From Bacteroidaceae bacterium (lineage in GTDB: Bacteria; Bacteroidota; Bacteroidia; Bacteroidales; Bacteroidaceae): a stretch of 37,944 bases of DNA. The stretch covers positions 1 to 37,944 of the forward strand of contig JAFUVM010000028.1 in assembly GCA_017483665.1 (NCBI GenBank), given 5' to 3'. Below the pieces are notes generated by a model that was not told where the DNA came from, made no database searches, and worked only from the letters and a program-made list of their open reading frames with translations. The position numbers were made by a program, and so were the translations under genes. Of the stretch, positions 8,968-31,200 are shown piece after piece; position 1 is the stretch's first letter; every line of letters begins with the position of its first letter.

Positions 8968-9702
8968 ATGAAAAGCGACAGCATAGTCATCATACCGACA
9001 TACAACGAAAAGGAGAACATCGAGGCCATCATAAGGGCCGTCACCTCTCTGGAGAAAGCATTCGACATCCTTGTCATCGACGACGGCAGCCCCGACGGGA
9101 CAGCCGACATCGTGAAGGGACTGATGCAAGGGGAGCTGTCGGGGCGCGTCCATCTGGTGGAACGTTCCGGCAAACTCGGGCTTGGCACGGCATACATCTG
9201 CGGCTTCAAGTGGGCGTTGGAGAACGGCTACGACTATGTCATCGAGATGGATGCCGACTTCAGCCACTCGCCCAACGACCTGCCTCGGCTCTATGCTGCC
9301 TGCCACGACGAGGGCTACGATGTCTCGGTGGGCAGCCGTTATATCACCGGCGTGAACGTCGTGAACTGGCCCATCGGTCGCGTACTGATGTCGTACTACG
9401 CCTCGGCATACGTCCGCACCGTGCTTGGCATCTCCCTTCGCGACACCACGGCGGGCTTCGTGTGCTGGACGCGGAAGGTCCTGGAAACGATTTGCCTGGA
9501 CAACATCCGCTTCAAGGGCTATGCTTTCCAGATTGAGATGAAGTACACGGCCCTTCGCCTGGGCTTCAGGATCAAGGAGGTTCCCGTGGTCTTCGTCAAC
9601 CGCGAGCTGGGCACGAGCAAGATGTCCGGCGGCATCTTCAGCGAAGCACTCTTCGGCGTGATGCGCCTGCGCTTCACGAAGTTCAAGAGGAATGGGGATT
9701 AG
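8968..9702 (+). CDS. Polyprenol monophosphomannose synthase-like glycosyltransferase (GT2)
   Basis: 244 residues from the ATG at 8968. The frame stays open to 8932, but that would start inside the promoter. IVIIPTYNEKENIEAII and ILVIDDGSPDGTADIV are the GT2 nucleotide-binding segments. YVIEMDADFSHSPNDLP carries the DxD metal site. RFKGYAFQIEMKYTA and RELGTSKMSG match dolichol/polyprenol-phosphate mannosyltransferases without the C-terminal membrane domain. It probably moves a sugar onto a lipid phosphate at the inner membrane. The following gtrA gene fits a lipid-linked sugar pathway. Its TAG stop lies in the first unit of a GGGATTAG repeat. Confidence 0.88.
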   Translation: MKSDSIVIIPTYNEKENIEAIIRAVTSLEKAFDILVIDDGSPDGTADIVKGLMQGELSGRVHLVERSGKLGLGTAYICGFKWALENGYDYVIEMDADFSHSPNDLPRLYAACHDEGYDVSVGSRYITGVNVVNWPIGRVLMSYYASAYVRTVLGISLRDTTAGFVCWTRKVLETICLDNIRFKGYAFQIEMKYTALRLGFRIKEVPVVFVNRELGTSKMSGGIFSEALFGVMRLRFTKFKRNGD

Positions 9703-9778
9703 AGGAGTAGGGATTAGAGGAATAGGGATTAGGGAATAGAGGATTAGGGAATAGGGATTAGAGATTAGGGACTGGAAA
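9694..9778. repeat. Purine-rich GGGATTAG / GGAATAG repeat tract
   Basis: About nine degenerate units of GGGATTAG or GGAATAG fill the gap between the glycosyltransferase gene and gtrA. The stop codon of the upstream gene is the TAG of the first unit. The same repeat type appears at 10541-10577 (reverse orientation), 23421-23454 and 26168-26233. Confidence 0.8.
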
Positions 9779-9784
9779 TTAAGA

Positions 9785-10204
9785 ATGCTCGACAGAATAA
9801 AGGAACTACTTAGCTACAAGGAGACGCAGCAGTTTGTCCGTTTCTGCATCGTTGGTGCGACTTGTTTTCTGATAGATGCCGCAGTCTATCACATCGTGCT
9901 GAGCTTTGCGCCCTACTTGGTTGCCCTTATCTCAGGCTATATCATTTCCTTCTGCTTCAACTATTTCCTGACGGTCTACTGGACATTCCAGACGCGTTCT
10001 TCGGTGCTGAACCTGGTCGGCATTGTCGGAGCCCACATGTTCAATCTCTTTGTCGTACGCGCCGGGCTCTTGTTGCTTTTTGTCGAAGGCTTAGGACTGA
10101 GCGCAGGCATCGCATATTGGCCGATGGCTGTCATCTCGGCTGTGACGAACTATATCGTCATCCGCACCGTAGTGAAATTCACGAAAAAACAAAAGGAAGA
10201 ATAG
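9785..10204 (+). CDS. GtrA family membrane protein
   Basis: 139 residues with four predicted membrane segments: residues ~18-40 (FCIVGATCFLIDAAVYHIVL), ~44-65, ~75-95 and ~105-125. The pattern TQQFVRFCIVGATCFLIDAAVY and the late NYIVIRTVVKF are typical of GtrA proteins. These are thought to flip undecaprenyl-phosphate-linked sugars across the inner membrane. This fits the upstream GT2 enzyme, from which it is separated only by the repeat tract. Confidence 0.88.
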   Translation: MLDRIKELLSYKETQQFVRFCIVGATCFLIDAAVYHIVLSFAPYLVALISGYIISFCFNYFLTVYWTFQTRSSVLNLVGIVGAHMFNLFVVRAGLLLLFVEGLGLSAGIAYWPMAVISAVTNYIVIRTVVKFTKKQKEE

Positions 10205-10213
10205 CACGCGCCA

Positions 10214-10535
10214 CGCGCTTGTTCCGGAAGACCCTCGCGCTTATTTCCGAAGACCCTCGCGCTTATTTCCGAAGACCCTTGCGCTTATTTCCGAAGACCC
10301 TCGCGCTTATTTCCGAAGACCCTCGCGCTTATTTCCGAAGACCCTTGCGCTTATTTCCGAAGCTCCACGCTCTTATTTCCGAAGACCCTCGCGCTTATTT
10401 CCGAAGACCCTCGCACTTATTTCCGAAGCCCCTTGCGCTTATTTCCGAAGACCCTCGCACTTATTTCCGAAGACCCTCGCGCTTATTTCCGAAGCCCCTT
10501 GCGCTTATTTCCGAAGACCCTCGCACTTTTTCCGG
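10214..10535. repeat. 22-bp tandem repeat array 1 (14 units plus a partial)
   Basis: Units start every 22 bp from 10214 to 10522. The core reads CGCTTATTTCCGAAGACC. The first unit and the final partial one are degenerate. The array fills the space between gtrA (plus) and a minus-strand membrane protein, which converge. It is open in several frames only because 22 is not a multiple of three and the repeat lacks stops, so I call no gene here. The same family recurs at 15743-15830 and 23477-23696. Confidence 0.93.
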
Positions 10536-10577
10536 AAACAAACAAGCCCTATTCCCTAATCCCTATTCCCTAATCCT
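10527..10577. repeat. Flank of array 1: conserved 37-nt block plus CCCTAATCC repeats
   Basis: Bases 10527-10563 are the exact reverse complement of 23438-23474, which flanks array 2. The block contains the palindrome TTCCGGAA, then AACAAGCCCTATTCCC. It ends at the stop codon of the minus-strand gene. Confidence 0.85.
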
Positions 10578-12103
10578 TACTCCCTCTCATAAACCTGCAT
10601 CTTTTGGTTCAGGGTGACGGGCTCCATGACGTACTTCAGCAGGAAACGCGGCCAGGTCAGGTTCCACAGGAACTTGTGGGGCGTGGTGATGAAACGGTAG
10701 CGGAAGAGCTCCTCCTCGTCGTAGATGAGACGGTAATTGGCGGGGATGGGCGCGTCGTAGTACTCGTGGCACGTATTGATGGCCCCTATCTCGCGCACCA
10801 GATACTTCACTCGTCCCGACTCCACCAGCTCGGCCTGTTCGCGCTTTATGTCGGGGTCGAGAATGCTGGAAATGAAGAAATTCTTGTTGGGAGGCAGATG
10901 CCGCGTATGCTGATAGATGCCCGTATCGTAGGAACTGAAGGTCAGCACCTCGCTGTCCTCCGTCGTGTTGGCATTGATAATCTCAGCCATCTCCAGCACC
11001 CGGCAGGGGAATGTGCCGTTCAGCAGCGTCACGAGGTTCCAGTTCGTCGCTGCGCCGGCAATGGCAATGGCAATCATCACGGCGTGCGACCGCCAGGTCA
11101 GTCTGACGTTGGGACAGTAGTTGATGAGCAGCGGGAAGAAGGTGAAGATGGTCAGGAAGTAGTAGAACTGCACCGTCATCGTCGAGAAGGAGAGCAGCAG
11201 CACGCCGTAGGTGGAGAAGACGAGCAGCTTCACCTCGCGACGCGTCGGCAGGAAGATAACCGGCACCATCAGCACGCTCCAGATGCCAAGCTTCACGAGC
11301 GGGAACCACCAGAAGTCGGGCTCGCCGTTCGTCGCCACGCCGTGGTAGTGGAAGATGTTGACCATGAAGTACGACTGCCACAGCGCATCCAGCGTGCCAT
11401 GCACAGCAAAGTACGACAGCACGAGTATCGTCAGGCAGACAAACCCCGCCAGCACACAGGAGACGATAAGCCAGAAGCCCTTCATCCACCCGTGCTTCCA
11501 GGCGATATAGGCCAGCGCCGGGATGGCGACCACGTAGAAGAACAGCAGGTTGAACTTCATCCAGAAGATAAGGGCCACGCCCACACCCACAAAGAACGAC
11601 TGACGGACGGACGGCACATGGCCGTCGCGGGCAAACCGCACCATGTAGTAGAGGCTCTGGGCCAGAATGGGCAGTGAGAGCTCCTCCACGCTGTCGCCGT
11701 AGTAGAAGAAGTCCGACGAATAGGTCACCACCCCAAGCAGAAGCGTCAGGGACAACGTGGCATCCGAAGCAGAAAACTGCCGCATCGTGCGCAGCGAATA
11801 GTGTAGATAGAAATAGCAGCACACCAGTTCCACCAGCCAGATGCCCGCAAAACTGCTGCGGGACAGCATCGCTGCCGCCTCGTGCAGGAAGAAAAGCACC
11901 GGACCCTTATGGTCGAAGATGTCCACGTAAAGCTCCTTTCCGCTAAGCATGGCGTTGCCTATGGTCATGTACACATTGGCATCGTCCCAGGGATTGAGCG
12001 GGTAGAGGAACGAGCACGTACTGAACAGCGCCGTGAGCACCGCAGCAAAGAAGAACAATAGCAATTCCTCCCGGATTTGACTTAAACTCATATCTACACG
12101 CAT
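10577..12103 (-). CDS. Polytopic membrane protein, GT-C glycosyltransferase-like
   Basis: 508 residues with about ten hydrophobic segments in the first 380 residues and a soluble C-terminal part. Near residues 35-70, LNPWDDANVYMTIGNAML followed by YVDIFDHKGPVLFFLHE resembles the first periplasmic loop of GT-C enzymes (the acidic pair in WDD and the DHKGP segment), which take sugars from polyprenyl phosphates. The exact family and substrate are not recognisable. The GT2 and GtrA genes that converge on it could supply a lipid-linked sugar. It is read alone from a divergent promoter shared with the DUF1573 gene. Confidence 0.72.
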   Translation of the reverse strand: MRVDMSLSQIREELLLFFFAAVLTALFSTCSFLYPLNPWDDANVYMTIGNAMLSGKELYVDIFDHKGPVLFFLHEAAAMLSRSSFAGIWLVELVCCYFYLHYSLRTMRQFSASDATLSLTLLLGVVTYSSDFFYYGDSVEELSLPILAQSLYYMVRFARDGHVPSVRQSFFVGVGVALIFWMKFNLLFFYVVAIPALAYIAWKHGWMKGFWLIVSCVLAGFVCLTILVLSYFAVHGTLDALWQSYFMVNIFHYHGVATNGEPDFWWFPLVKLGIWSVLMVPVIFLPTRREVKLLVFSTYGVLLLSFSTMTVQFYYFLTIFTFFPLLINYCPNVRLTWRSHAVMIAIAIAGAATNWNLVTLLNGTFPCRVLEMAEIINANTTEDSEVLTFSSYDTGIYQHTRHLPPNKNFFISSILDPDIKREQAELVESGRVKYLVREIGAINTCHEYYDAPIPANYRLIYDEEELFRYRFITTPHKFLWNLTWPRFLLKYVMEPVTLNQKMQVYERE

Positions 12104-12232: not shown

Positions 12233-13333
12233 ATGACACAGATTAAAGCATTACCATACGACACGAGACGTACCCTGTCGCTCCTCATATTCTTTGCCGC
12301 CGCAGCACTCGGCGCACTCGCACAGCCACGCTTTGTGCCCGACACCGACATCAAGAAGATGGGCGAAGTGGCATTCCAGATGCCACGGAAGTTCAGCATC
12401 GGATTCACCAACACAGGCGACAAGCCGCTGCTCATCCAAGAGGTGAAGGCCTCCTGCGGCTGCCTCGACGTGAAGTACCCCAAGGCGGCCATCGCTGCCG
12501 GCGCACGCGGCGAGATATCCCTGACCTTCGACGCAAAGCTCCTGGGCTCCTTCTACAAGGAACTCGAGGTGCGGACCAACGCCTCGGACGAACCGAAGTA
12601 CATCGGCATCCAGGGCACCGTCGTCACCGAGATACAGGACTTCAGCGACGAATTTCCCCTCGACCTCGGGGGCGTACGGCTGGAGACGAACACCATCGAG
12701 TTCGAGGACGTCAACCTCGGAGACAAGCCGACGGCCGAGCTACGCGTGCTGAACACCGACCGCACCGCCTACCGGCCCGAGCTCATGCACCTGCCCCCGT
12801 ACCTCAGCGCCGAATGCGAACCGAAGGACATCCCCGCAGGGAAGACAGGCACCATCCGCATCACGCTCGACAGCGAAAAGCTCAGTCAGCTGGGACTCAG
12901 CCAGACGAGCATCTACCTCTCGCGCTACCTGGGCGACAAAATCGGAGAGACTAACGAGATACTCGTCTCGGCCATCCTGCTGCCAAGCTTTGCCAAAATG
13001 ACAGAAGCAGAACTCGCCGCAGCCCCAGAGCTCACGGTCAGCGAATCGACAATCAGCATGGAGGTCAAGAGCGGCAAGAAGGCCCTCAGCCACATCGTCA
13101 CGCTCACCAACACCGGACAGAGCGACCTGCACATACAGCAGGTGCAGGTCTTCAACAAAGCCCTCAGCGTCAGGATTCCCGACCGCACCATACGTCCCGG
13201 CAAAAGCACACGCCTGAAGGTGAGCGTCACCGCAGGCTATCTGAGCAAGAGCAAGGGACGCATGCGCGTCCTCCTCATCACCGACGCTCCCAAGCAAGCC
13301 AAGCAATACATCAACGTGGAAGTCAAGAATTAA
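12233..13333 (+). CDS. DUF1573 domain protein, secreted
   Basis: 366 residues. The signal peptide covers about residues 14-30 (SLLIFFAAAALGALAQ). FSIGFTNTGDKPLLIQEVK, then ASCGCLDVKYPKAAIAAGARG, is the hallmark of DUF1573, an immunoglobulin-like fold with a CGC motif after a TNTG strand. The C-terminal part repeats the pattern (HIVTLTNTGQSDLHIQQVQV), so two or three such domains are likely. DUF1573 proteins are common periplasmic or surface proteins of Bacteroidetes with no assigned reaction. It is followed by an inverted-repeat element and then meaB. Confidence 0.88.
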   Translation: MTQIKALPYDTRRTLSLLIFFAAAALGALAQPRFVPDTDIKKMGEVAFQMPRKFSIGFTNTGDKPLLIQEVKASCGCLDVKYPKAAIAAGARGEISLTFDAKLLGSFYKELEVRTNASDEPKYIGIQGTVVTEIQDFSDEFPLDLGGVRLETNTIEFEDVNLGDKPTAELRVLNTDRTAYRPELMHLPPYLSAECEPKDIPAGKTGTIRITLDSEKLSQLGLSQTSIYLSRYLGDKIGETNEILVSAILLPSFAKMTEAELAAAPELTVSESTISMEVKSGKKALSHIVTLTNTGQSDLHIQQVQVFNKALSVRIPDRTIRPGKSTRLKVSVTAGYLSKSKGRMRVLLITDAPKQAKQYINVEVKN

Positions 13334-13334
13334 A

Positions 13335-13429
13335 AGTGAAAAGTGAAAAATGAAAAGTGAAAAATGAAAGTAACAGTCAAGAGCCGAATGTAACTCTGAT
13401 TCTTCACTTTTCATTCTTCACTTTTCACT
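13335..13429. repeat. Intergenic inverted-repeat element of the AGTGAA family
   Basis: The left arm (13335-13368) is built of AGTGAAAAGTGAAAAATGAA units. The right arm (13400-13429) is its complement with few mismatches. The ~31-nt centre contains TAACTCTGAT. The same plan, including TAACTCAGATTCTTCACT, is found in frame inside the ketosynthase gene at 29938-30043, and a half copy lies in the exporter gene at 35006-35040. It could form a hairpin between the DUF1573 gene and meaB. Confidence 0.85.
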
Positions 13430-13445
13430 AAATAATAATATCGAC

Positions 13446-14543
13446 ATGGAACACCCCGAGAACAATCCCGAATATGCCGGACTGACCGTGAACAGCGGCG
13501 TCGGACCCGTCTCAATCGTCAATCCGCACCTCAACCGCAAGCGCTTCTCGCGCCACCGGCTCTCGGCTGCCGACTACGTGGAAGGCATCCTGAAGGGCAA
13601 CATCACCGTCCTGGGACAGGCCGTGACGCTGGTCGAAAGCACCATCCCCGAGCATCAGGTCATCGCACAGGAGGTCATCGAGAAATGCCTGCCGTACTCA
13701 GGCCACAGCGTCCGCGTGGGCATCAGCGGCGTGCCGGGCGCAGGCAAGAGCACCAGCATCGACGAGTTCGGCATACACGTGCTGAAGGAATACGGCGGAC
13801 GGCTGGCCGTGCTGGCCAGCGACCCATCGAGCGAAAGAAGCAAGGGCAGCATCCTGGGCGACAAGACGCGCATGGAGAAACTCAGCGTCCACCCCGACTC
13901 GTTCATCCGCCCCAGCCCCTCGGCCGGCAGTCTGGGCGGCGTGGCCCGCAAGACGCGCGAGACCATCATCCTGTGCGAAGCGGCGGGGTTCGACAAAATC
14001 TTCGTCGAGACGGTCGGCGTAGGGCAGAGCGAGACGGCTTGCCACTCGATGGTCGACTTCTTCCTGCTCATACAATTGGCCGGCACGGGCGACGAGCTGC
14101 AGGGCATCAAGCGCGGCATCATGGAGATGGCCGACGGCATCATCATCAACAAGTGCGACGGCAACAACGTCGACAAGTGCCAGCTGGCAGCCACTCACTT
14201 CCGCAACGCGCTCCAACTCTTCCCGCTGCCCGAAAGCGGATGGGCGCCGCAGGTGCTCACCTACAGCGGCTTCTACGGCTATGGCATCAAGGAGGTCTGG
14301 GACATGGTCTACAGCTACCTGGACTTCGTCAAGAAGAACGGCTACTTCGACTACCGCCGGGCCGAGCAGGCGAAGTACTGGATGTATGAGAGCATCAACG
14401 AGCAATTGATGGGGAACTTCTATCACAATCCGACGATTGCCGACATGCTTCAGGCCGCCGAGCAAGGCGTGCTGAACGGCGAGCGCACGTCATTCGTCGC
14501 TGCCAAGCAGTTGCTCGATTCTTACTTTGCACTGCTCCATTAG
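13446..14543 (+). CDS. meaB: Methylmalonyl-CoA mutase-associated GTPase MeaB
   Basis: 365 residues. VGISGVPGAGKSTSIDEFG near residues 92-110 is the P-loop. VLASDPSSERSKGSILGDKTRM is the conserved MeaB/ArgK switch region. FVETVGVGQSE gives the G3 region and IINKCDGNN the G4 (NKxD-type) motif. MeaB proteins protect and reload the B12-dependent methylmalonyl-CoA mutase of the succinate-propionate route. No mutase gene is adjacent. The last 54 bp overlap the antiparallel 3' end of ispH. Confidence 0.94.
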   Translation: MEHPENNPEYAGLTVNSGVGPVSIVNPHLNRKRFSRHRLSAADYVEGILKGNITVLGQAVTLVESTIPEHQVIAQEVIEKCLPYSGHSVRVGISGVPGAGKSTSIDEFGIHVLKEYGGRLAVLASDPSSERSKGSILGDKTRMEKLSVHPDSFIRPSPSAGSLGGVARKTRETIILCEAAGFDKIFVETVGVGQSETACHSMVDFFLLIQLAGTGDELQGIKRGIMEMADGIIINKCDGNNVDKCQLAATHFRNALQLFPLPESGWAPQVLTYSGFYGYGIKEVWDMVYSYLDFVKKNGYFDYRRAEQAKYWMYESINEQLMGNFYHNPTIADMLQAAEQGVLNGERTSFVAAKQLLDSYFALLH

Positions 14544-15362
14544 CCATTTCGGTGTGCTCGTGGCACCACAGATGCCTATCGATTCACAATCTTGCAGCCA
14601 GCGGACATCAATTTCGCTGGCTGTGTCTATCAGGTAGGAACGCGGATTGGCTTTCTTGCATTCGTTGAAGAGGACGCGGCCGTTGCTGCTCTTCTTGCCG
14701 CAGACGAACAGCACGACGTCGTGCCTGAGGGCGAAGCTGCGGATGTTCGGCATGCGGTTGGCCACCTGTCGGCAGATGGTGTCGTAGTAGGTGAAGGTCG
14801 CTTCGGGGCTGATGTGCTGCTGGACGTAGTTGACAATCTTGCGGAACTCGTCGAGCGGCTTTGTGGTCTGGGAATAGAGACAGATGTCGCGGCTGAAGTC
14901 GAGCTTCTCCACGTCGTCGGCCGACTCGATGATGATGGCCGTCTCCTCCGTCTGTCCCACCAGCCCGAGCACTTCGGCATGTCCGTTCTTGCCGAAGATG
15001 ACGATTTGTTTCCGGTGCTCGGGGTCGGCATCGTATTCCTTCTTGATGCGTTCCTGCAAGTGGAGCACCACGGGGCACGTGGCGTCTATCAGGTTGATGG
15101 AGCGTTCGCGTGCCAGCGCATAGGTGGAGGGCGGCTCGCCATGAGCACGCAGCAGCACCTTGGCATCGTGCATCTGCCGCATCTGTTCGTGGTTGATGGT
15201 CACGAGTCCCATCTGCCCGAGGCGGTCGCACTCCCTGCCGTTGTGCACGATGTCGCCCAGGCAATACAACTGGTCGGCCTTTGCCAACTCCTCTTCTGCC
15301 TTGCCGATGGCGCGTGTCACACCGAAGCAGAAGCCCGAACCCTGGTCTATTTCTATCTTCAT
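14490..15362 (-). CDS. ispH: 4-hydroxy-3-methylbut-2-enyl diphosphate reductase
   Basis: 290 residues from the ATG at 15362; the open frame reaches 15521, but the upstream part has no family sequence and runs antisense to a FISUMP fragment. The three iron-sulfur cysteines are Cys12 (GFCFGV), Cys96 (DATCPVV) and Cys197 (TICRQVANR), the same numbering as in E. coli IspH. AHGEP and KNGHAEVLG carry conserved substrate-binding residues. The enzyme forms IPP and DMAPP, the last step of the MEP pathway, feeding UppS and the polyprenyl synthase in this window. It overlaps meaB tail to tail by 54 bp. Confidence 0.96.
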   Translation of the reverse strand: MKIEIDQGSGFCFGVTRAIGKAEEELAKADQLYCLGDIVHNGRECDRLGQMGLVTINHEQMRQMHDAKVLLRAHGEPPSTYALARERSINLIDATCPVVLHLQERIKKEYDADPEHRKQIVIFGKNGHAEVLGLVGQTEETAIIIESADDVEKLDFSRDICLYSQTTKPLDEFRKIVNYVQQHISPEATFTYYDTICRQVANRMPNIRSFALRHDVVLFVCGKKSSNGRVLFNECKKANPRSYLIDTASEIDVRWLQDCESIGICGATSTPKWLMEQCKVRIEQLLGSDE

Positions 15363-15367
15363 GCCTG

Positions 15368-15375
15368 CAAAGGTA
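15368..15375 (-). promoter_or_regulatory. -7 box TACCTTTG directly before ispH
   Basis: On the minus strand TACCTTTG ends five bases before the ATG of ispH. The predicted start of transcription is therefore at or next to the start codon. A TTTG at standard -33 spacing is not evident. This box also helps choose the 15362 start over longer frames. Confidence 0.6.
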
Positions 15376-15435
15376 CGAAATAATTCACAAACACCCCCCT
15401 CGGTTGAAACATTTTCTTGCCTTTTCCTTTGAAGA

Positions 15436-15663
15436 ATGATTATAAGCAAGCGCAACGGGAAACAAATCTTCCTGCCCGCGGCGGGACATTGCCAGGACAC
15501 GAATCTTGGCGGAGCCGGCACGGAAGGCTACTACTGGTCGCGCTCAATCTCCGTCGGCTACCCGGGCAGTGCGAGCAGCCTTTTCTTCAGCGCAGGCCAT
15601 CCTGTCTTAATGAACTACTACTACCGCTACGTCGGTCGGACTATCCGTCCTGTACGCAAATAG
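15436..15663 (+). pseudogene. 5'-truncated FISUMP-domain gene fragment
   Basis: 75 codons. From IFLPAAGHCQD to the end (GRTIRPVRK) it matches the last ~65 residues of the intact lipoprotein at 23779-24606, including YPGSASSLFF and HPVLMNYYYRY. Over 30 consecutive bases before the stop (the HPVLMNYYYRY region) are identical in both. It lacks signal peptide, lipobox and most of the domain, so it is a remnant or silent copy. The downstream terminator hairpin and 22-bp array also resemble those after the intact gene, so the whole 3' module is duplicated. Expression is doubtful. Confidence 0.8.
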
Positions 15664-15685: not shown

Positions 15686-15733
15686 AGAAAGAAGGGAGCG
15701 TGTCGGCTCATGCTGACACACTCCCTTCTTTCT
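15686..15733. terminator. Strong hairpin after the FISUMP fragment
   Basis: The 19-nt arms 15686-15704 and 15715-15733 pair with one mismatch (AGAAAGAAGGGAGCGTGTC and its complement) around a 10-nt loop. The inner GAAGGGAG stem is shared with the hairpin at 23711-23754. The arms end in TTCTTTCT / AGAAAGAA, so it could terminate in either direction. Confidence 0.75.
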
Positions 15734-15742
15734 GTCACGGCA

Positions 15743-15830
15743 CGCGCTTATTTCGGAAGAGCCTAGCTCTTATCTCCGAAGAGCCTAACGCTTTTTTCCG
15801 AAGAGCCTAACGCTTATTTCGGAAGAGCAC
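15743..15830. repeat. 22-bp tandem repeat array 3 (4 units)
   Basis: Four degenerate units begin at 15743, 15765, 15787 and 15809 with the core CGCTTATTTCGGAAGAGCCT. They end seven bases before the cmk stop codon. The array lies between the FISUMP fragment (plus) and cmk (minus), again a convergent gap. No 37-nt flank is present here. Confidence 0.88.
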
Positions 15831-15836
15831 GGCGCT

Positions 15837-16529
15837 TCAGTCCTCGCCTGCCGCTCTGTGGTACTGCTCCAGCAGCCATGCCTTCTGTTCGGGAATGGTC
15901 ATGTCGCTGTTGTCCAGTACGATGGCATCGTCGGCCTTGCGAAGCGGACTGATGGCGCGGGTGGAGTCGATGCGGTCGCGCTCGATGATGTTGGCCCGAA
16001 TCTCGTCAAGGCTGCACGCCTCGCCCTTAGCCATGAGTTCGTCATAGCGGCGCTGGGCGCGGACATCGGCACTGGCCGTGACGAATACCTTCAGCTCGGC
16101 ATCGGGAAAGACGACCGTCCCTATGTCGCGTCCGTCCATGATGACCCCCTTGGCCTCGCCCATCAGGCGTTGCATGTCCACCATCGCTTCGCGCACAAAA
16201 CCCAGCGTAGCAATGGGGCTGACCCATTTCGAGACCTCCATCGTCCGTATCTCTTTCTCTACGCAGACACCGTTCAGATAGGTGTCAGGGCGCCCCGTCT
16301 CTTCGTTCAGGCAGAAGGTTATCATGATGTCCGCCATGCTCTGGCGCAACGACTCCTCGTCAATGCCGGCTTCAGTTATCAAGCCGTTCCGCAGGGCAAA
16401 GAGCGTCACGGAGCGGTACATCGCGCCCGTATCTATATATATGTACCCGATCTCCTTGGCAAGGTCCTTGGCCATCGTGCTCTTACCGCACGAAGAATGG
16501 CCGTCGATGGCAATCGTTATGAGTTTCAT
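15837..16529 (-). CDS. cmk: (d)CMP kinase
   Basis: 230 residues. [19 protein letters not shown] carries the P-loop at residues 10-18. [16 protein letters not shown] is the CMP-binding block. [20 protein letters not shown] and [20 protein letters not shown] are diagnostic of the type 1 cytidylate kinase. It phosphorylates CMP and dCMP. It lies 15 nt downstream of porQ on the same strand, so the two are probably one transcript. Confidence 0.96.
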
Positions 16530-22660: not shown

Positions 22661-23118
22661 TGGCAGGATTCAAGAAAAAAGCAAGTCGTGAAATGCCGGA
22701 GATGAACACCTCATCTCTGCCCGACCTTATCTTCACCATCCTATTCTTCTTCATGATGGTAACCACGATGCGCGAAGTGACCCTGAAGGTGAAGTTCGTC
22801 ATCCCCGCCGGTACCGAGTTGGAGAAGCTGGAGAAGAAATCGGTAGTATCGTTCATCTACGTCGGTCCTCCCACCGATAACCTGCGTGCTCAGATGGGTA
22901 GCAGTACCCGTATTCAGCTGAATGACCGTTACGCAGAACCGCGCGAAGTCATGGACTTTGTGGCAGCAGAGCGTAAGGGCATGACGAATCAGGCAGAGCA
23001 GATTATCAGCATCAAGGCCGACCAGCACACACAGATGGGCTACATCACCGACATCAAAGAAGTGCTCCGTAAGTCGTGGGCGCTGCGTATCAACTACTCA
23101 GCCTCACGCAGAAACTGA
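22660..23118 (+). CDS. ExbD/TolR family biopolymer transport protein, copy 2
   Basis: 152 residues. NTSSLPDLIFTILFFFMMVTTM is the membrane helix with the key Asp in SLPDLIF. The periplasmic part ends ITDIKEVLRKSWALRINYSA, typical of Bacteroidetes ExbD. Two distinct ExbD proteins suggest a heteromeric ExbD pair. It is the last gene before the terminator at 23218-23252. Confidence 0.92.
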   Translation: MAGFKKKASREMPEMNTSSLPDLIFTILFFFMMVTTMREVTLKVKFVIPAGTELEKLEKKSVVSFIYVGPPTDNLRAQMGSSTRIQLNDRYAEPREVMDFVAAERKGMTNQAEQIISIKADQHTQMGYITDIKEVLRKSWALRINYSASRRN

Positions 23119-23217
23119 CAAGAGACCTTGCGTCTGGCCTGAATGCAAACGGCGCTTTGCTTAGCGCAAAACAGACAGACTGCATGCAGGGGAGCTTTGA
23201 GACAACAAAAGGAAAAG

Positions 23218-23252
23218 TGGTTCTCTCGGAAAGGAGGGAACCATTTTTTTTA
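23218..23252 (+). terminator. Rho-independent terminator of the exbB operon
   Basis: TGGTTCTCTC (23218-23227) pairs with GAGGGAACCA (23234-23243) across a 6-nt loop, then eight T bases. Bases 23253-23420 hold no gene I can support. Confidence 0.85.
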
Positions 23253-23437
23253 TAATCGCTTTACCCATGAATGAAAACAAAGGTGATTATATAGGGAACA
23301 CATCACGCGGCGACAGGAGACAAAACACGTGACGATGAGCAACACGGCATGTATTGATGGGAATCACGACATGAAGCGATAGCAAACACTCCAGGTACAA
23401 ATAGATTGTAACTGTGGAGATTAGGGATTAAGGAATA

Positions 23438-23474
23438 GGGATTAGGGAATAGGGCTTGTTTGTTTCCGGAAAAA
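23438..23474. repeat. Flank of array 2: conserved 37-nt block
   Basis: Exact reverse complement of 10527-10563. GGATTAGG-type units precede it (from 23421), and it ends with GTTTGTTTCCGGAAAAA. Confidence 0.88.
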
Positions 23475-23476
23475 AG

Positions 23477-23696
23477 GCGAGGCTCTTCCGAAATAAACGC
23501 GAGGCTCTTCCGAAATAAGCGCGAGGCTCTTCCGAAATAAACGCAAGGCTCTTCCGAAATAAGCGCAAGGCTCTTCCGAAATAAGCGCGAGGCTCTTCCG
23601 AAATAAGCGCAAGGCTCTTCCAAAATAAGCGCGAGGCTCTTCCGAAATAAGCGCGAGGCTCTTCCGAAATAAGAGCAAGGCTCTGCTGAAACATTT
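23477..23696. repeat. 22-bp tandem repeat array 2 (10 units)
   Basis: Ten units start every 22 bp from 23477; the core on this strand is GCGAGGCTCTTCCGAAATAA. Read on the minus strand this is the same repeat family as arrays 1 and 3. The last unit is degenerate. It lies between exbD copy 2 (plus) and the FISUMP lipoprotein (minus), a convergent gap. Minus-strand frames here arise only from the repeat. Confidence 0.93.
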
Positions 23697-23710: not shown

Positions 23711-23754
23711 GAGGAAGGGAGTGTGTCTGCCTTAGGCGTCACGCTCCCTTCCTC
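23711..23754 (-). terminator. Hairpin terminator after the FISUMP lipoprotein
   Basis: GAGGAAGGGAGTGTG (23711-23725) pairs with 23740-23754 with one mismatch, and an inner GCC/GGC extends the stem. It resembles the hairpin at 15686-15733 in sequence (AAGGGAGyGTG) and position. Confidence 0.75.
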
Positions 23755-23778: not shown

Positions 23779-24606
23779 TTATTTGCGTACGGGACGTATG
23801 GTCCGACCGAAGTAGCGGTAGTAGTAGTTCATTAAGACAGGATGTCTCGAGGAGAAAAACAAGCTGCTCGCACTGCCCGGGTAACCAGCGGTGGGGATTG
23901 AGCGCGACCAGTAGCCACCTTCCGTGCCGACTGCAACAATATCCGAGTCTTGGCAATATCCTGCCGCGGGCAGGAAGAGTTCTTTATCTGTGTACTCGTT
24001 CCTAATCAGCAAGCCATTTACGCCGTTCCGCGTGACCCACTTCACGGTTTTGACGTTTCGTTTGACTTCTATGGCGTTCCCCCCGTGGTCGATTACCACC
24101 TCAATTACTTTGATGTTACTCCCGTCGATTAACTCTGCGATTTGCGCCGGGCTGGGTGTCTGCCAACTGCCGCCCCATTTCTCTGTTGCGGCATCATCCC
24201 CGGAACTAAGCTCCTTTACTCCATCCACATAGCCTTCATAGCCGCAGTTGCGCTGCAAACAGTATTTTGTCAGCAAGTTGGTTGAATTGTAACTGAACTT
24301 GTAGCTTTCCCAAGAGAAATGTGTTTTGCCGCTCTCCCTGCCTTGCGTCTCGCCCCAGGCAAAGTAATCGCCGTATTCCTCGGGGCCAGATGCCCCCACA
24401 TTGCACGTGGCCCATAGTGTGCCGCTTGGCAGGCCAAGGTCTACCCATTCGTGTCCGTCCGTGGAGCCGTACTCGCCGATAGAACCTCTGTCATTCCCCG
24501 CAGGAGCGTTCTCGTCAATGTCATTTTTTGAACAGCTTCCGATGATGCAGCTGCCAGAGCACACAGCCAACAGAAGCAGGACTGAGAAAAAGTTACTTTT
24601 CTTCAT
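23779..24606 (-). CDS. FISUMP-domain lipoprotein
   Basis: 275 residues. The start is a lipoprotein signal (FFSVLLLLAVCSGSC; a second candidate cysteine sits in GSCSK). HEWVDLGLPSGTLWATCNVG is the opening of the Fibrobacter succinogenes major paralogous domain, with YFAWGE, WGGSWQTPSPAQIAEL, LFLPAAGY and a C-terminal GYWSRS to RTIRPVRK block. The domain is related to the C-type-lectin-like formylglycine-enzyme fold and is common on Bacteroidetes surfaces; ligands are unknown. A 5'-truncated copy of the last ~65 residues lies at 15436-15663. Lower GC in its first half than the neighbouring genes hints at transfer. Confidence 0.88.
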   Translation of the reverse strand: MKKSNFFSVLLLLAVCSGSCIIGSCSKNDIDENAPAGNDRGSIGEYGSTDGHEWVDLGLPSGTLWATCNVGASGPEEYGDYFAWGETQGRESGKTHFSWESYKFSYNSTNLLTKYCLQRNCGYEGYVDGVKELSSGDDAATEKWGGSWQTPSPAQIAELIDGSNIKVIEVVIDHGGNAIEVKRNVKTVKWVTRNGVNGLLIRNEYTDKELFLPAAGYCQDSDIVAVGTEGGYWSRSIPTAGYPGSASSLFFSSRHPVLMNYYYRYFGRTIRPVRK

Positions 24607-25068: not shown

Positions 25069-26184
25069 ATGAACCTCTTCCCTGACACAAAGAAAAGGTA
25101 CACGACGGAGCAGCTATCGACGAGAGAGGCACAGCGACAGGCGGAGTTCATTGCATGGGGACCTATCGTATTCCAGGCAACGAGACTGATGCTTAAGTTC
25201 GGCATTCTCGACATGCTGCGCGACAGCGACAAGGGGCTCACAGAGAAAGAGATTGCTGCGGGAACAGGACTTTCCCTCTACGCCGTCAAGTGCCTGCTGG
25301 AGGCTTCACTCTCGATTGGCACAGTCCTCATCAACACGGAGACAGACCGCTACACAATCTCCAAGACTGGCTGGTTCGTCCTGAACGACCCGGCCACGAG
25401 AGTGAACATCGACTTCAACCACGACGTCAACTACATCGGGCTGTTCCATCTGGAGGAGGCATTCAGGGAGGGCCGTCCGGCGGGGCTGAGACATTTCGGC
25501 AACTGGCCGACGATCTACGAGGGACTCTCCAGCCTGCCCCGGCAAGCACAGGAGAGCTGGCTGAACTTCGACCACTTCTACAGCGACGCGTCCTTCCCGG
25601 AGGCACTTCAGATTGTCTTCGGGCAACACCATGTGCGCTCGCTCTACGACGTGGGCGGCAACACGGGCAGATGGGCGCTGCAGTGTGTCAGCTACGACGA
25701 TGAGGTGGAAGTGACCGTGCTCGACTTGCCGCAACAGATAGAGATGATGAACGGCTGCATAGCAGACAAGCCCGGAGCCGAACGCATCAAAGGCTACGGC
25801 ATCAATCTGCTCGATGCAAAAGCTCCATTCCCAAGGCGCGAAGGGGGACTCGATGCCATCTGGATGTCGCAATTCCTCGACTGCTTCTGCGAAGAAGAGA
25901 TTGTCAGCATCCTGAGCCGCGCACGGGAAACAATGGATGCCGGCACGCGCCTGTTCATCATGGAAACATTCTGGGACCGCCAGCGCTTCGAGCCTGCTGC
26001 CTTCTGTCTCACAATGACCAGCCTCTACTTCACGGCAATGGCAAACGGCAACAGCAAGATGTACCATTCCGACGACATGCGGCGACTCGTGGAAGAAGCA
26101 GGGTTGGAAATCGAAGCCATCCACGACGGACTGGGACTCGGACACAGCATCATGGTGTGCAGGAGATTGGGGATTAAGGATTAG
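25069..26184 (+). CDS. SAM-dependent O-methyltransferase of the polyene cluster
   Basis: 371 residues. The N-terminal ~100 residues form a winged-helix dimerisation-like region (FQATRLMLKFGILDML, LTEKEIAAGTGLSLYAVKCLLEA). SAM motif I is SLYDVGGNTGRWAL near residue 194. DAIWMSQFLDCFCEEEIVSIL and RLFIMETFWDR follow the O-methyltransferase fold, and the end has a short histidine-rich GLGLGHS. Aryl polyene clusters often contain a methyltransferase acting on the aryl head group; the exact target is inferred. The final codons and the TAG stop are made of the GGGATTAAGGATTAG repeat, so the C-terminus may be repeat-derived. Confidence 0.82.
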   Translation: MNLFPDTKKRYTTEQLSTREAQRQAEFIAWGPIVFQATRLMLKFGILDMLRDSDKGLTEKEIAAGTGLSLYAVKCLLEASLSIGTVLINTETDRYTISKTGWFVLNDPATRVNIDFNHDVNYIGLFHLEEAFREGRPAGLRHFGNWPTIYEGLSSLPRQAQESWLNFDHFYSDASFPEALQIVFGQHHVRSLYDVGGNTGRWALQCVSYDDEVEVTVLDLPQQIEMMNGCIADKPGAERIKGYGINLLDAKAPFPRREGGLDAIWMSQFLDCFCEEEIVSILSRARETMDAGTRLFIMETFWDRQRFEPAAFCLTMTSLYFTAMANGNSKMYHSDDMRRLVEEAGLEIEAIHDGLGLGHSIMVCRRLGIKD

Positions 26185-26233
26185 GGAATAGGGAATAGGG
26201 AATAGAGATTAGAGATTAAAGATTAAAGTATAG
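26168..26233. repeat. GGATTAGGGAATAG repeat tract
   Basis: Degenerate GGATTAAGG, TAGGGAATA and AGAGATTA units begin inside the last codons of the methyltransferase gene and fill the gap to the acyltransferase start at 26240. Same family as 9694-9778. Confidence 0.78.
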
Positions 26234-29252: not shown

Positions 29253-31121
29253 GTGGACATCACAGTAGCAGGTTACGGCATTATCTGCGCGATAGGCAAC
29301 GACGCGACGGCAGTCCTGGCTTCCCTCAAGGCGGGGAGGACGGGGATTGGCCCCATGCGCTATCTGCAGTCGAGTCACAAGGAACTGCCCGTTGGCGAAG
29401 TGAAACTCTCCAACGCGGAAATGCTGCGGATGCTCGGACAGGACGAGTCGGCCATCGTCAGCCGCACGGCCCTGATGGGAGCCATCGCTATCCGTCAGGC
29501 CTTGCAGCATGCCCATCTGGACACAAAAGGCAAGCGCATCGTCGTCATCAACGGCACAACCGTAGGCGGAATGGACGTCACGGAACGCTTCCTCCGGCAG
29601 ATGAGAGAGGACGACGGCCTGCTGCCACTCCTGGAGAAGCACGACTGCGGCAGTTCCACACGCCAGATGGCCGACCTGGCCGGCCTGGGGGATGCCGAGG
29701 TCTGCACCGTGTCCACGGCCTGCTCGTCTGCCGTCAACGCCATCATTCTCGGGTCGGAAATGCTGAAGGCGGGCGAGGCAGACGTGGTCATCGCAGGCGG
29801 TACGGAGGCCCTGAGCCGCTTCCACCTGAACGGATTCAACTCTCTGATGATACTCGACAAAGAGCCGTGCCGACCGTTCGACAGGAACCGTGCCGGCCTG
29901 AACCTCGGCGAAGGAGCCGCTTACGTGGTGCTAACACACTCTTTAGTTAAGAGTGAAGAGTTAAGAGTGAAGAATAAAAGCAACAATTTAGAGTGCGAAG
30001 ATAACTCAGATTCTTCACTCTTCACTCTTAACTCTTCACTTTATATTTGCGGCTACGGCAACCGTTGCGACGCTTTCCACCAGACGGCTTCGTCGGAGGA
30101 CGGCGAAGGTGCCTACCTTGCCATGTGCGACGCCTTGCAGATGGCCGGGCTCCGACCGGCGGACATCCACTACATCAACGCACACGGGACGGGCACTCCC
30201 AACAACGATGCCAGCGAGAGTGCTGCCATACGGCGCGTCTTCGGGCAGAAAATTCCGCCCGTCTCCAGCACGAAAGGCTTTACGGGCCACACCACATCGG
30301 CCTGCGGAGCCATCGAGACCGTCATTTCTATCCTGGCCCTGCAACACCAGTTCCTGCCCGTCAACCTCGGTTGGAAGGAGCAGGACGAAGCGTGCATCAG
30401 GCCTTACGACAATTCAATTTTATTAAATTCAACATTCAAAGACTCTTCTTTGAAGGCAGTCCTCTGCAACTCATTCGGCTTCGGGGGCAACGACTCGGCA
30501 CTTGTAATTGGGAGCCTCCCCCGCCCTTCCCAAGAAGAGGAACAGCCGATGGAGCGCCACAGGGCCTGCACTTTGGCAGAAGCCGTCGTTACCGATACGG
30601 AGCAACTCAGCGAGCTTCGGGAGTTCGTCACGGCAGGCGAGGCCCGACGGATGTCGCGGCTCATGAAGGCAGCCACCTTGTCGTCGATGCAGGCGCTGCG
30701 GAAAGCCGGCGTGGAGTGCCCGGATGCCATCATCACAGCCACGGCCTACGGCATGCTCGAGACGAGCGCGAAGTTCCTCACCGACATGCTGGAGAACGGC
30801 GAAGAGACGCTCAGCCCTACCCTCTTCATGCAGAGCACGCACAACACGCTCAGCTCGGCCATTGCCATACGACTCAGGTGTCACGGCTACAACATGACCT
30901 ACAGCCAAGGCTCCGACTCGCTCCGATGGGCGCTTCGCGACGCCACCCGACTGATAGAGACAGGCCGCGCCCGGACCGTCCTCGTCGGTCTGCACGACGA
31001 AGCTACGCCCTCGTTCCAAGACTTCTGCCGCCGGCTGGGCAAACCTGTGCCGCCGATGCTCTTCTCACGAAGCGTCGTCCTGGGAAGAAGCACGTGTGAT
31101 GAATCGGTTTATCACGTGTGA
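29253..31121 (+). CDS. Beta-ketoacyl synthase 2 fused to a CLF-type domain, with in-frame repeat insertions
   Basis: 622 residues with a GTG start (no ATG begins this frame at the right place). Residues ~1-420 are a FabF-type ketosynthase with Cys157 (VSTACSSAV), His311 (NAHGTGTPNND) and His346 (GFTGHTTSACG). Residues ~430-610 (MSRLMKAATLSSMQALR, ITATAYGMLETSAKFL, FMQSTHNTLSSAIAIR) match the beta-ketoacyl synthase chain-length-factor type. Residues ~229-264 come from an inverted-repeat element (29938-30043), in the surface loop that normally bears an Ala/Arg/Gly helix. The last nine or so codons and the TGA stop belong to a 22-bp repeat array. The core triad is intact, so I expect activity. 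Confidence 0.83.
   Translation: MDITVAGYGIICAIGNDATAVLASLKAGRTGIGPMRYLQSSHKELPVGEVKLSNAEMLRMLGQDESAIVSRTALMGAIAIRQALQHAHLDTKGKRIVVINGTTVGGMDVTERFLRQMREDDGLLPLLEKHDCGSSTRQMADLAGLGDAEVCTVSTACSSAVNAIILGSEMLKAGEADVVIAGGTEALSRFHLNGFNSLMILDKEPCRPFDRNRAGLNLGEGAAYVVLTHSLVKSEELRVKNKSNNLECEDNSDSSLFTLNSSLYICGYGNRCDAFHQTASSEDGEGAYLAMCDALQMAGLRPADIHYINAHGTGTPNNDASESAAIRRVFGQKIPPVSSTKGFTGHTTSACGAIETVISILALQHQFLPVNLGWKEQDEACIRPYDNSILLNSTFKDSSLKAVLCNSFGFGGNDSALVIGSLPRPSQEEEQPMERHRACTLAEAVVTDTEQLSELREFVTAGEARRMSRLMKAATLSSMQALRKAGVECPDAIITATAYGMLETSAKFLTDMLENGEETLSPTLFMQSTHNTLSSAIAIRLRCHGYNMTYSQGSDSLRWALRDATRLIETGRARTVLVGLHDEATPSFQDFCRRLGKPVPPMLFSRSVVLGRSTCDESVYHV
29938..30043. repeat. In-frame inverted-repeat element (AGTGAA family) inside ketosynthase 2
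   Basis: The left arm at ~29950-29973 has AGTGAAGAGTTAAGAGTGAA and the right arm at 30011-30040 is its complement. The centre contains GATAACTCAGATTC. Arms and centre match the intergenic element at 13335-13429. It is ~106 nt but adds no stop and keeps the frame. Confidence 0.88.
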
Positions 31122-31200
31122 CGAATCGGTTTATCACGTGTGAAAAAGGCAAAGTTCACGTGTGAAGAAAGCCAAGTTCACGTGTGAAGTCCGGTTTCCA
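31091..31200. repeat. 22-bp tandem repeat with CACGTGTGA core (5 units)
   Basis: CACGTGTGA starts at 31091, 31113, 31135, 31157 and 31179, exactly 22 bp apart. Spacers are of two kinds (TGAATCGGTTTA-like in units 1-2, AAAAAGGCAAAG-like in 3-4). The second core supplies the stop codon TGA of ketosynthase 2 (31119-31121). Bases 31201-31256 hold no gene. Confidence 0.93.

Follow-up and report, generated by a model that had tools for sequence, protein, structure and literature searches.

The window (the whole stretch of DNA analyzed, 37,944 nucleotides) is one whole contig of a 3.06-Mb assembly in 150 contigs that is 78% complete. Three tandem arrays of a 22-bp unit, here called family A, lie in it, each with units head to tail. 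Array 1 (10214..10534, + strand; TRF 22 bp × 14.6; variant TTTCCGAAGACC) is flanked by a GtrA gene (9785-10204, +) and a gene on the other strand (10577-12040, −); array 2 (23464..23691, units on the − strand; TRF 22 bp × 10.4; variant TTTCGGAAGAGC) is flanked by an ExbD-like gene (22693-23118, +) and a gene for a 275-aa protein (23779-24606, −); array 3 (15740..15837, + strand; about four units; TRF 15745-15828, period 22, × 3.8) ends at the stop codon of the cytidylate kinase gene cmk (15837..16529, −; Pfam PF02224, E 3.9e-65). An earlier note on this DNA had reported these 22-bp arrays, and they are real, far above chance and at or near the positions given there: when up to three mismatches are tolerated, an 18-mer from that note has 27 matches in the window, 27/27 in arrays 1-3, where 0.03 matches are expected. 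The end that it gave for array 1, 10577, takes in a run of CCCTAAT heptads (10547-10585) that lies outside the 22-bp array. Its view that all three belong to one unit family stands in that family A is found throughout, but exact copies of the unit it described are confined, within the window, to array 1, and the units of arrays 2 and 3 belong to a sister variant of CGCTTATTTCGGAAGAGC type, 2-3 mismatches away.

The count of three was itself incomplete. A fourth phased array (31090..31187, + strand; found by TRF), of a non-A unit family, lies in a tandem gap and overlaps the stop codon of a + strand gene; it consists of five (G/T)CACGTGTGA cores (TCACGTGTGA-type) exactly 22 bp apart, starting at 31090, 31112, 31134, 31156, and 31178, with linkers that switch after the second core, and its exact two-core pattern had 0 matches in 352 loci. 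Flanking sequence is shared within the window by arrays 1 and 2 as a 38-bp boundary and by arrays 2 and 3 as a duplicated gene end. The boundary of array 1, TTTTTCCGGAAACAAACAAGCCC (10527..10549, +), after which the CCCTAAT heptads follow, has a nearly identical counterpart in sequence and flank at the end of array 2 (23452..23475, −), the two flanks matching at 92% over 38 bp. Heptad repeats occur in the window at 9686-9771, 10547-10585, 13320-13369, 23419-23454, and 26164-26225 (GGGATTA/GGGAATA, AAAAGTG, and many others). Rfam, at gathering score, gives only tRNA in the window.

Array 3 has as its full-length neighbors cmk and ispH/lytB (14490..15383, −; NCBIfam NF002187, E 2.4e-116), both on the − strand and co-directional. 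The claim of the earlier note that each array lies where two genes converge therefore applies to arrays 1 and 2, and to array 3 only by way of a gene fragment, a 75-aa ORF (15436..15663, +) with a BLASTP match of 70% over 76 aa to the C-terminal end of the product of gene 23779-24606; the ORF resembles only the last 76 residues of that 275-aa protein. Arrays 2 and 3 each adjoin a copy of this gene end, and between cmk and ispH the C-terminal fragment is accompanied by a similar terminator-like hairpin, with the same gene end found there in the related Prevotellaceae bacterium UBA4336. The orthologous spacer of UBA4336 (L067) holds an array as well. In 15 of 30 cmk loci of the genus, counting those of this genome and UBA4336, ispH comes directly after cmk or overlaps it on the same strand; in 3 it stands 76-113 bp away with a different 22-bp array between, and in 9 it was not found; the distance is 457 bp in this genome, 545 in UBA4336, and 1389 in one locus, where the match is partial. 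At 28 cmk loci of the genus, 8/17 arrays have period 22, three of these between cmk and ispH. Downstream of cmk in genome G114 (L314), two distinct 22-bp arrays are stacked with 2.9 copies of a 44-bp repeat within about 500 bp.

Family A is abundant in few genomes. Genome-wide, CKCTTATTTCSGAAGA at up to 2 mismatches gave 422 matches, and the reversed control gave 8. Paired units were found in named relatives, namely Prevotellaceae bacterium UBA4336, Bacteroidales RUG14526, and an uncultured Prevotella from reindeer (69 stretches: 33 + 34 + 2). Among 121 genomes of the genus, paired units at up to 2 mismatches occurred in 8, with the mass in G000 (306) and G053 (260) and 1-3 in the six others; the pattern of conserved blocks (see below) occurred in 17/139, with the mass in G000 (311), G053 (173), and G135 (266) and 1-5 in the rest, so that family A is massive in 3/139 genus genomes. 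The block pattern was seen in 1 other genome among 60 of the order and in none except the own genome among 41 of the phylum. Copy number ranges from 2 to 14.6 units per array.

Placement relative to genes was scored in 60 stretches of the own genome (the first stretch of each of contigs C1-C60, 0.88 of 3.06 Mb), chosen regardless of arrays, and in loci of relatives; genes were called by a purpose-written codon-score caller, not a standard program, and arrays of at least 2 units were counted. The gap statistics exclude edge arrays (8 own, 5 UBA4336, 1 G053, 4 RUG14526) and one G053 array in a called gene; the UBA4336 loci and G053 represent the same genome, so that these samples are not independent. 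When the refuting condition set in the earlier note was checked in the 60 stretches, 20 of the 32 family-A arrays placed outside the window were found to lie in tandem gaps, 10 in convergent, and 2 in divergent gaps. Since most placed arrays are tandem, the arrays are not specific to convergent pairs, and the convergent-only rule was rejected as a rule and kept as an enrichment: with the window excluded, family A occupies 10/69 convergent, 20/481 tandem, and 2/76 divergent gaps, an enrichment of convergent spacers, per gap, of about fourfold (convergent vs. tandem, p = 0.0019; convergent vs. divergent, p = 0.014; tandem vs. divergent, p = 0.75; all gaps, own genome). When only gaps of at least 100 bp are considered, the own genome has 10/39 convergent, 20/177 tandem, and 2/71 divergent (p = 0.037 for convergent/tandem, 0.0005 for convergent/divergent, and 0.045 for tandem/divergent). 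At the same gap length, loci picked for the pattern gave 10/13, 19/48, and 2/22 in UBA4336 and 11/14, 14/61, and 7/22 in RUG14526, where divergent gaps are no poorer in arrays than tandem ones. The unchosen G053 sample was without convergent enrichment (1/12, 7/82, and 1/26). Arrays of any sequence with period 22 in nine relatives occupy 15/134 tandem, 4/21 convergent, and 2/47 divergent gaps, where the ratios are of all array-holding gaps over gaps of at least 100 bp and 4 arrays are unplaced.

In tandem gaps the array is nearer the upstream stop in 41/55 cases (p = 0.0004), and its strand relative to the gene (34 same, 21 opposite) shows no significant preference (p = 0.10). No family-A array lies inside a called gene in the own genome (0/43), and 1/12 does in G053, near the gene start. 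"Downstream of genes" is therefore a fairer placement rule than convergent pairs, and the same placement is reported for REP elements (PMC3733652). Four of 40 arrays lie within 400 bp of contig ends where 1.7 are expected, which is unremarkable; some array copies in UBA4336 contain runs of N.

Spacing within family A is nearly exact: neighboring cores up to 100 bp apart are spaced by 22 bp in 139/142 cases in the own genome (the other 3 at 44), 172/178 in UBA4336, and 145/145 in RUG14526. Variation within the unit is very unevenly distributed over its columns in arrays of at least 3 units (41 own, 39 UBA4336, 35 RUG14526). In interior units of arrays of at least 4 units (29 own, 31 UBA4336, 32 RUG14526), the blocks CTTAT and GAAG and a C three bases on differ from the array consensus at 0.3-0.9% (9/980 own, 9/1300 UBA4336, 3/1120 RUG14526), vs. 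11-14% in the remaining columns (135/1176, 203/1560, and 188/1344, respectively). Columns of the search pattern that lie outside the blocks vary equally (67/588, 90/780, and 88/672); the arrays themselves were found by the family-A pattern. The block columns were selected post hoc; the test of variance between columns involved no such selection, and in each of the three species the between-column variance exceeded all 2000 permutations. Such near-invariant blocks are unlike a drifting minisatellite.

The earlier note had remarked that a period of 22 bp is about two DNA turns, and this period turned out to matter more than the note could tell: largely irrespective of unit sequence, 22 ranks first or second among intergenic periods in every genus sample. 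Period 22 accounts for 85/324 intergenic arrays in the own genome, 20/115 in G053, and 23/116, with dissimilar units, in nine relatives without mass family A (36 stretches, 0.67 Mb); period 7 is likewise frequent, with heptads making up 65/324, 22/115, and 19/116, respectively, and ranking second to period 22 in the own genome. Other genera of the order had 0/18 intergenic arrays at period 22 in a small control (39 loci from 31 genomes, one of them from the same family; 42.8 kb intergenic), for which our own arithmetic at genus rates gives an expectation of about 9-11, and 50 kb of E. coli K-12 had 0/1. Exact 22-bp spacing thus marks intergenic repeats across the sampled genus members, with unit sequences that differ among them.

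Some relatives reuse cores of their own at this spacing. A TCAACRTGTTGA-type core followed by 10 variable bases (N10; 3 mismatches) gave 536 pair matches in G054 and 0 in 11 other genomes, with 0-11 per genome in the reversed control (12 genomes), and ACCTTAGG followed by N14 (1 mismatch) gave 73 in G096, 74 in G069, 1 in G016, and 0 in nine. In four G054 stretches (18 cores vs. 3 in shuffles), neighboring cores are 22 bp apart in 8/8 pairs; among the matches listed, linker identity is 0.53 for 6 adjacent pairs vs. 0.42 for 153 cross-array pairs, and 2/6 adjacent pairs are 80% alike. Arrays of both G054 and G096 mix core orientations. G069 also has the ACCTTAGG core inside a family-A-like CTTATTTCGGAAG frame, so the ACCTTAGG family and family A may be related. 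For 29 units of period 22 taken from 8 relatives, two units of one genome share 10.87 matches on average vs. 10.25 for units of different genomes (label permutation, p = 0.002); a grouping of 102 22-mer units at a loose threshold was dropped, as 98 merged. Dyad symmetry is moderately enriched in 71 22-mers outside families A, B, and C (4.11 vs. 3.59 in shuffles; s.d. of mean 0.13), is 3.18 vs. 2.99 in 73 arrays of other periods, and is at the null level in the consensus units of families A, B, and C (4, 3, and 3).

Orthologous spacers were compared with UBA4336/G053 (68), RUG14526 (42), and four distant relatives (19). In the first two sets, the array is shared by both genomes at 9 spacers, confined to the other genome at 3, and absent from both at 98; no arrays were seen in the 19 spacers compared with the distant relatives. 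Own-only cases cannot be fairly counted, since most compared loci were picked for arrays. Among the three spacers with an array in the other genome only, one has own-genome units, one holds a degenerate relative of the 22-mer, and the third, by eye, has no family A and two copies of another 22-mer. Orthologous flanks mostly align closely, and unit variants differ between species. Unit identity is 0.82-0.84 within arrays, 0.77-0.80 between arrays of a species, and 0.72-0.76 between species, a mild pattern of concerted evolution; the likeness of family-A neighbors (82-84% within arrays) means that duplication clearly contributes.

From the spacing, block conservation, clade-specific cores, and placement described above, we infer a reader of the arrays, and consider it about an even bet (probability roughly 0.5) that they are phased duplex DNA sites for a putative, species-diversified DNA-binding protein. 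Of the roles suggested in the earlier note, protein binding is the one that the data favor, the protein itself being putative. Telling against this reading are the dyad symmetry, which is no more than moderate, the arms that do not covary within a species, the part played by duplication, the small out-of-genus control, and the samples in which a placement contrast is missing (convergent in G053, divergent in RUG14526). Each 22-bp unit would comprise a short recognition core and a freer linker; the core would be the CTTAT and GAAG blocks with the C three bases on in family A, and TCAACRTGTTGA or ACCTTAGG in sister species. Spacing by two turns would place all cores on one face of the helix, where copies of one putative protein could sit side by side and bind cooperatively, and the specificity of the putative binder would shift along with the core of the clade. 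Since three or more clades of the genus each have their own core, the specificity of any binder must have changed too. In plasmid iterons, a Rep protein binds direct repeats that are about 20-22 bp long and are likewise in phase with two turns of the helix. The likeness to iterons is one of repeat length and phasing, as these are found at one origin and the present arrays are scattered genome-wide. Because most arrays follow a gene and few separate divergent genes, their output would fit a structural or boundary role in the chromosome, or a spreading site, rather than a promoter switch. More tentatively, this Prevotellaceae-type genus may maintain a genome-wide system of sites at exactly 22 bp whose core is replaced by clade, possibly driven by a putative fast-evolving dimeric DNA-binding protein, which might serve the nucleoid or chromosomal boundaries, or give specificity to a system of genome marking or conversion. 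Hundreds of intergenic sites spaced by exactly 22 bp, with different sites in related species, hint at a DNA-binding protein matched to each species' site, and constant spacing with sequence turnover is the signature expected of a co-evolving site-and-reader system. If a reader exists, these genomes offer many natural core-reader pairs from which a specificity code could be worked out, and bacteria would have a new way of marking intergenic DNA; if there is none, the arrays show that mutation by itself can measure out two helical turns. Both outcomes are directly testable.

A selfish or neutral dispersed minisatellite, which would grow by slippage and unequal exchange, spread by ectopic gene conversion between loci, and survive where it does least harm, in spacers behind genes, is a possible but rather doubtful alternative. 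The range of copy numbers, the gradient of identity from within arrays to between species, the retention of arrays with species-specific unit variants in orthologous spacers, and the placement itself are what it predicts. Free drift, however, should affect all columns alike, and the blocks are nearly invariant; slippage sets no period, yet 22 is kept across dissimilar units and species; and neighbors in G054 keep their cores while their linkers vary. A phased array of binding sites explains the invariant blocks, the fixed spacing, and the conserved cores with changing linkers, which a drifting minisatellite does not. A partial counterpart is BrickBuilt, a minisatellite-MITE of Porphyromonas gingivalis that is described as having leader and tail segments and IS5-like terminal inverted repeats at 19 loci (PMC4596501). 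As there described, both are scattered, intergenic, head-to-tail repeats without spacers (23 bp in BrickBuilt, 22 here), with conserved and variable parts of the unit and a copy number that varies (in BrickBuilt between strains) (PMC4596501). The present arrays differ in that their units number in the hundreds and that the 22-bp spacing recurs in sister species with cores of another sequence. Common ends of the MITE kind were not seen by eye in 38 arrays, and the flank comparison gave no common leader or tail at the own arrays, where 21/85 flanks match another flank vs. 15/86 control intergenic pieces. Several array edges carry ACACGGC/GCCGTGT motifs, which are also present in family-C units. 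The BrickBuilt paper mentions that an earlier description of P. gingivalis W83 had listed tandem repeats of 41, 23, and 22 bp without their locations; these may be related (PMC4596501). Open-licence literature on Prevotella and relatives yielded no account of 22-bp phased arrays, which is weak evidence of novelty. Copying with a 22-nt step that is independent of sequence (e.g., by a nick pair or template switch), with core conservation secondary, would account for dissimilar period-22 units in many species, for periods 11 and 44, and for the peak at 22 that persists under looser TRF settings in nine relatives (41 arrays at 22 vs. 5 at 20 and 6 at 23, with 23 at 21 and 29 at 11). It is very improbable, as G054, G096, and G069 each reuse one core at many loci and adjacent G054 linkers are mostly not copies of one another.

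Folding of the arrays bears on two further readings. Candidate hairpins with AAG-N-GC...GC-N-CTT arms, in RNA or single-stranded DNA, were rejected for now, as no covariation was found in junctions (142 own, 170 UBA4336, 38 G053, 140 RUG14526) or units; in array 1, two inner arm pairs are mismatched, and the excess of pairing at unit positions 2/16 (0.63 vs. 0.49) appears only with species pooled and so reflects a between-species difference. Arm complementarity without covariation within species leaves a folded single strand unsupported, and an RNA-hairpin role is unsupported as well. The idea of the earlier note that the arrays block read-through, or end transcription, behind genes would fit their position behind genes near the upstream stop, the folding of array 3, which is better than that of shuffles (z −2.7, −2.3), and three overlapping − strand matches of a terminator scan at the edge of array 1 (10203-10219); the scan had no match in arrays 2 and 3, gave 21 matches in the region vs. 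14.4 expected, and missed three folded hairpins. These hairpins are strong and separate from the arrays: array 2 sits between a hairpin with a T run downstream of the ExbD-like gene (23215..23251, +; fold z −4.9), about 200 bp before the array, and another past the array, before the stop of gene 23779-24606 (23711..23754, both strands; z −6.0 and −5.9), and array 3 sits between the cmk stop and a two-way terminator-like hairpin (15686..15733, both strands; z −8.4 on + and −9.1 on −). Stretches of five units from arrays 1 and 2 show no folding beyond that of their shuffles (z +0.55 to +2.37), the strand of the arrays shows no significant preference, and read-through blocking is thus unsupported and, as an explanation, quite improbable.

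Spread as REP-like mobile palindromes, by a transposase of TnpA_REP/RAYT type acting on single-stranded hairpins, is unlikely, if less so than termination. REPs are reported to alternate in orientation or occur as pairs and to carry a stem-loop and, next to the palindrome, a GT(A/G)G or CGTC tag (PMC2817692, PMC3733652), and they resemble the present arrays as many short extragenic elements per genome in species-specific families, behind genes and between convergent genes (PMC2817692, PMC3733652). The placement in tandem and convergent gaps near upstream stops is as reported for REPs (PMC3733652), the families here are clade-specific, and both core orientations occur within arrays of G054 and G096, as in BIMEs. 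Family-A units, unlike REPs and BIMEs as there described (PMC2817692, PMC3733652), follow one another head to tail in steps of exactly 22 bp, although G054 and G096 do mix orientations, and neither tag was seen, by eye, in the own family-A consensus GCGCTTATTTCGGAAGAGCCTC. The own genome has a RAYT-like Y1 transposase gene, its sole Y1 match, at L226, but that gene is flanked by other palindromes, and the 3.2-kb locus has no family-A core at up to 4 mismatches, hence no inverted family-A copies around it, so that the case for a RAYT/REP origin is weak. Y1_Tnp matches occur in 10/18 genus genomes searched (G135 not among them) with no clear link to arrays, and of the three top matches G078 and G067 account for two, although both genomes are without family-A pairs; the head-to-tail units of the window and the folding and covariation results given above also argue against this origin.

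Two other kinds of repeat were observed. The RAYT-like gene at L226:1402-1938 lies amid GGCGGATTTGCAATCCGCC-type palindromes that are separate from the 22-bp arrays. A second recurrent element is built on the palindrome GGAAATATATTTC, which is set in a 21-bp repeat present in 3-4 copies, at loci that include L130:11079-11164, L127:4308-4389, L164:7079-7160, and L169:17072-17157 and also in G053; in 0.92 Mb, 13/19 of its loci have a 22-bp array, variable in sequence, no more than about 70 bp away.
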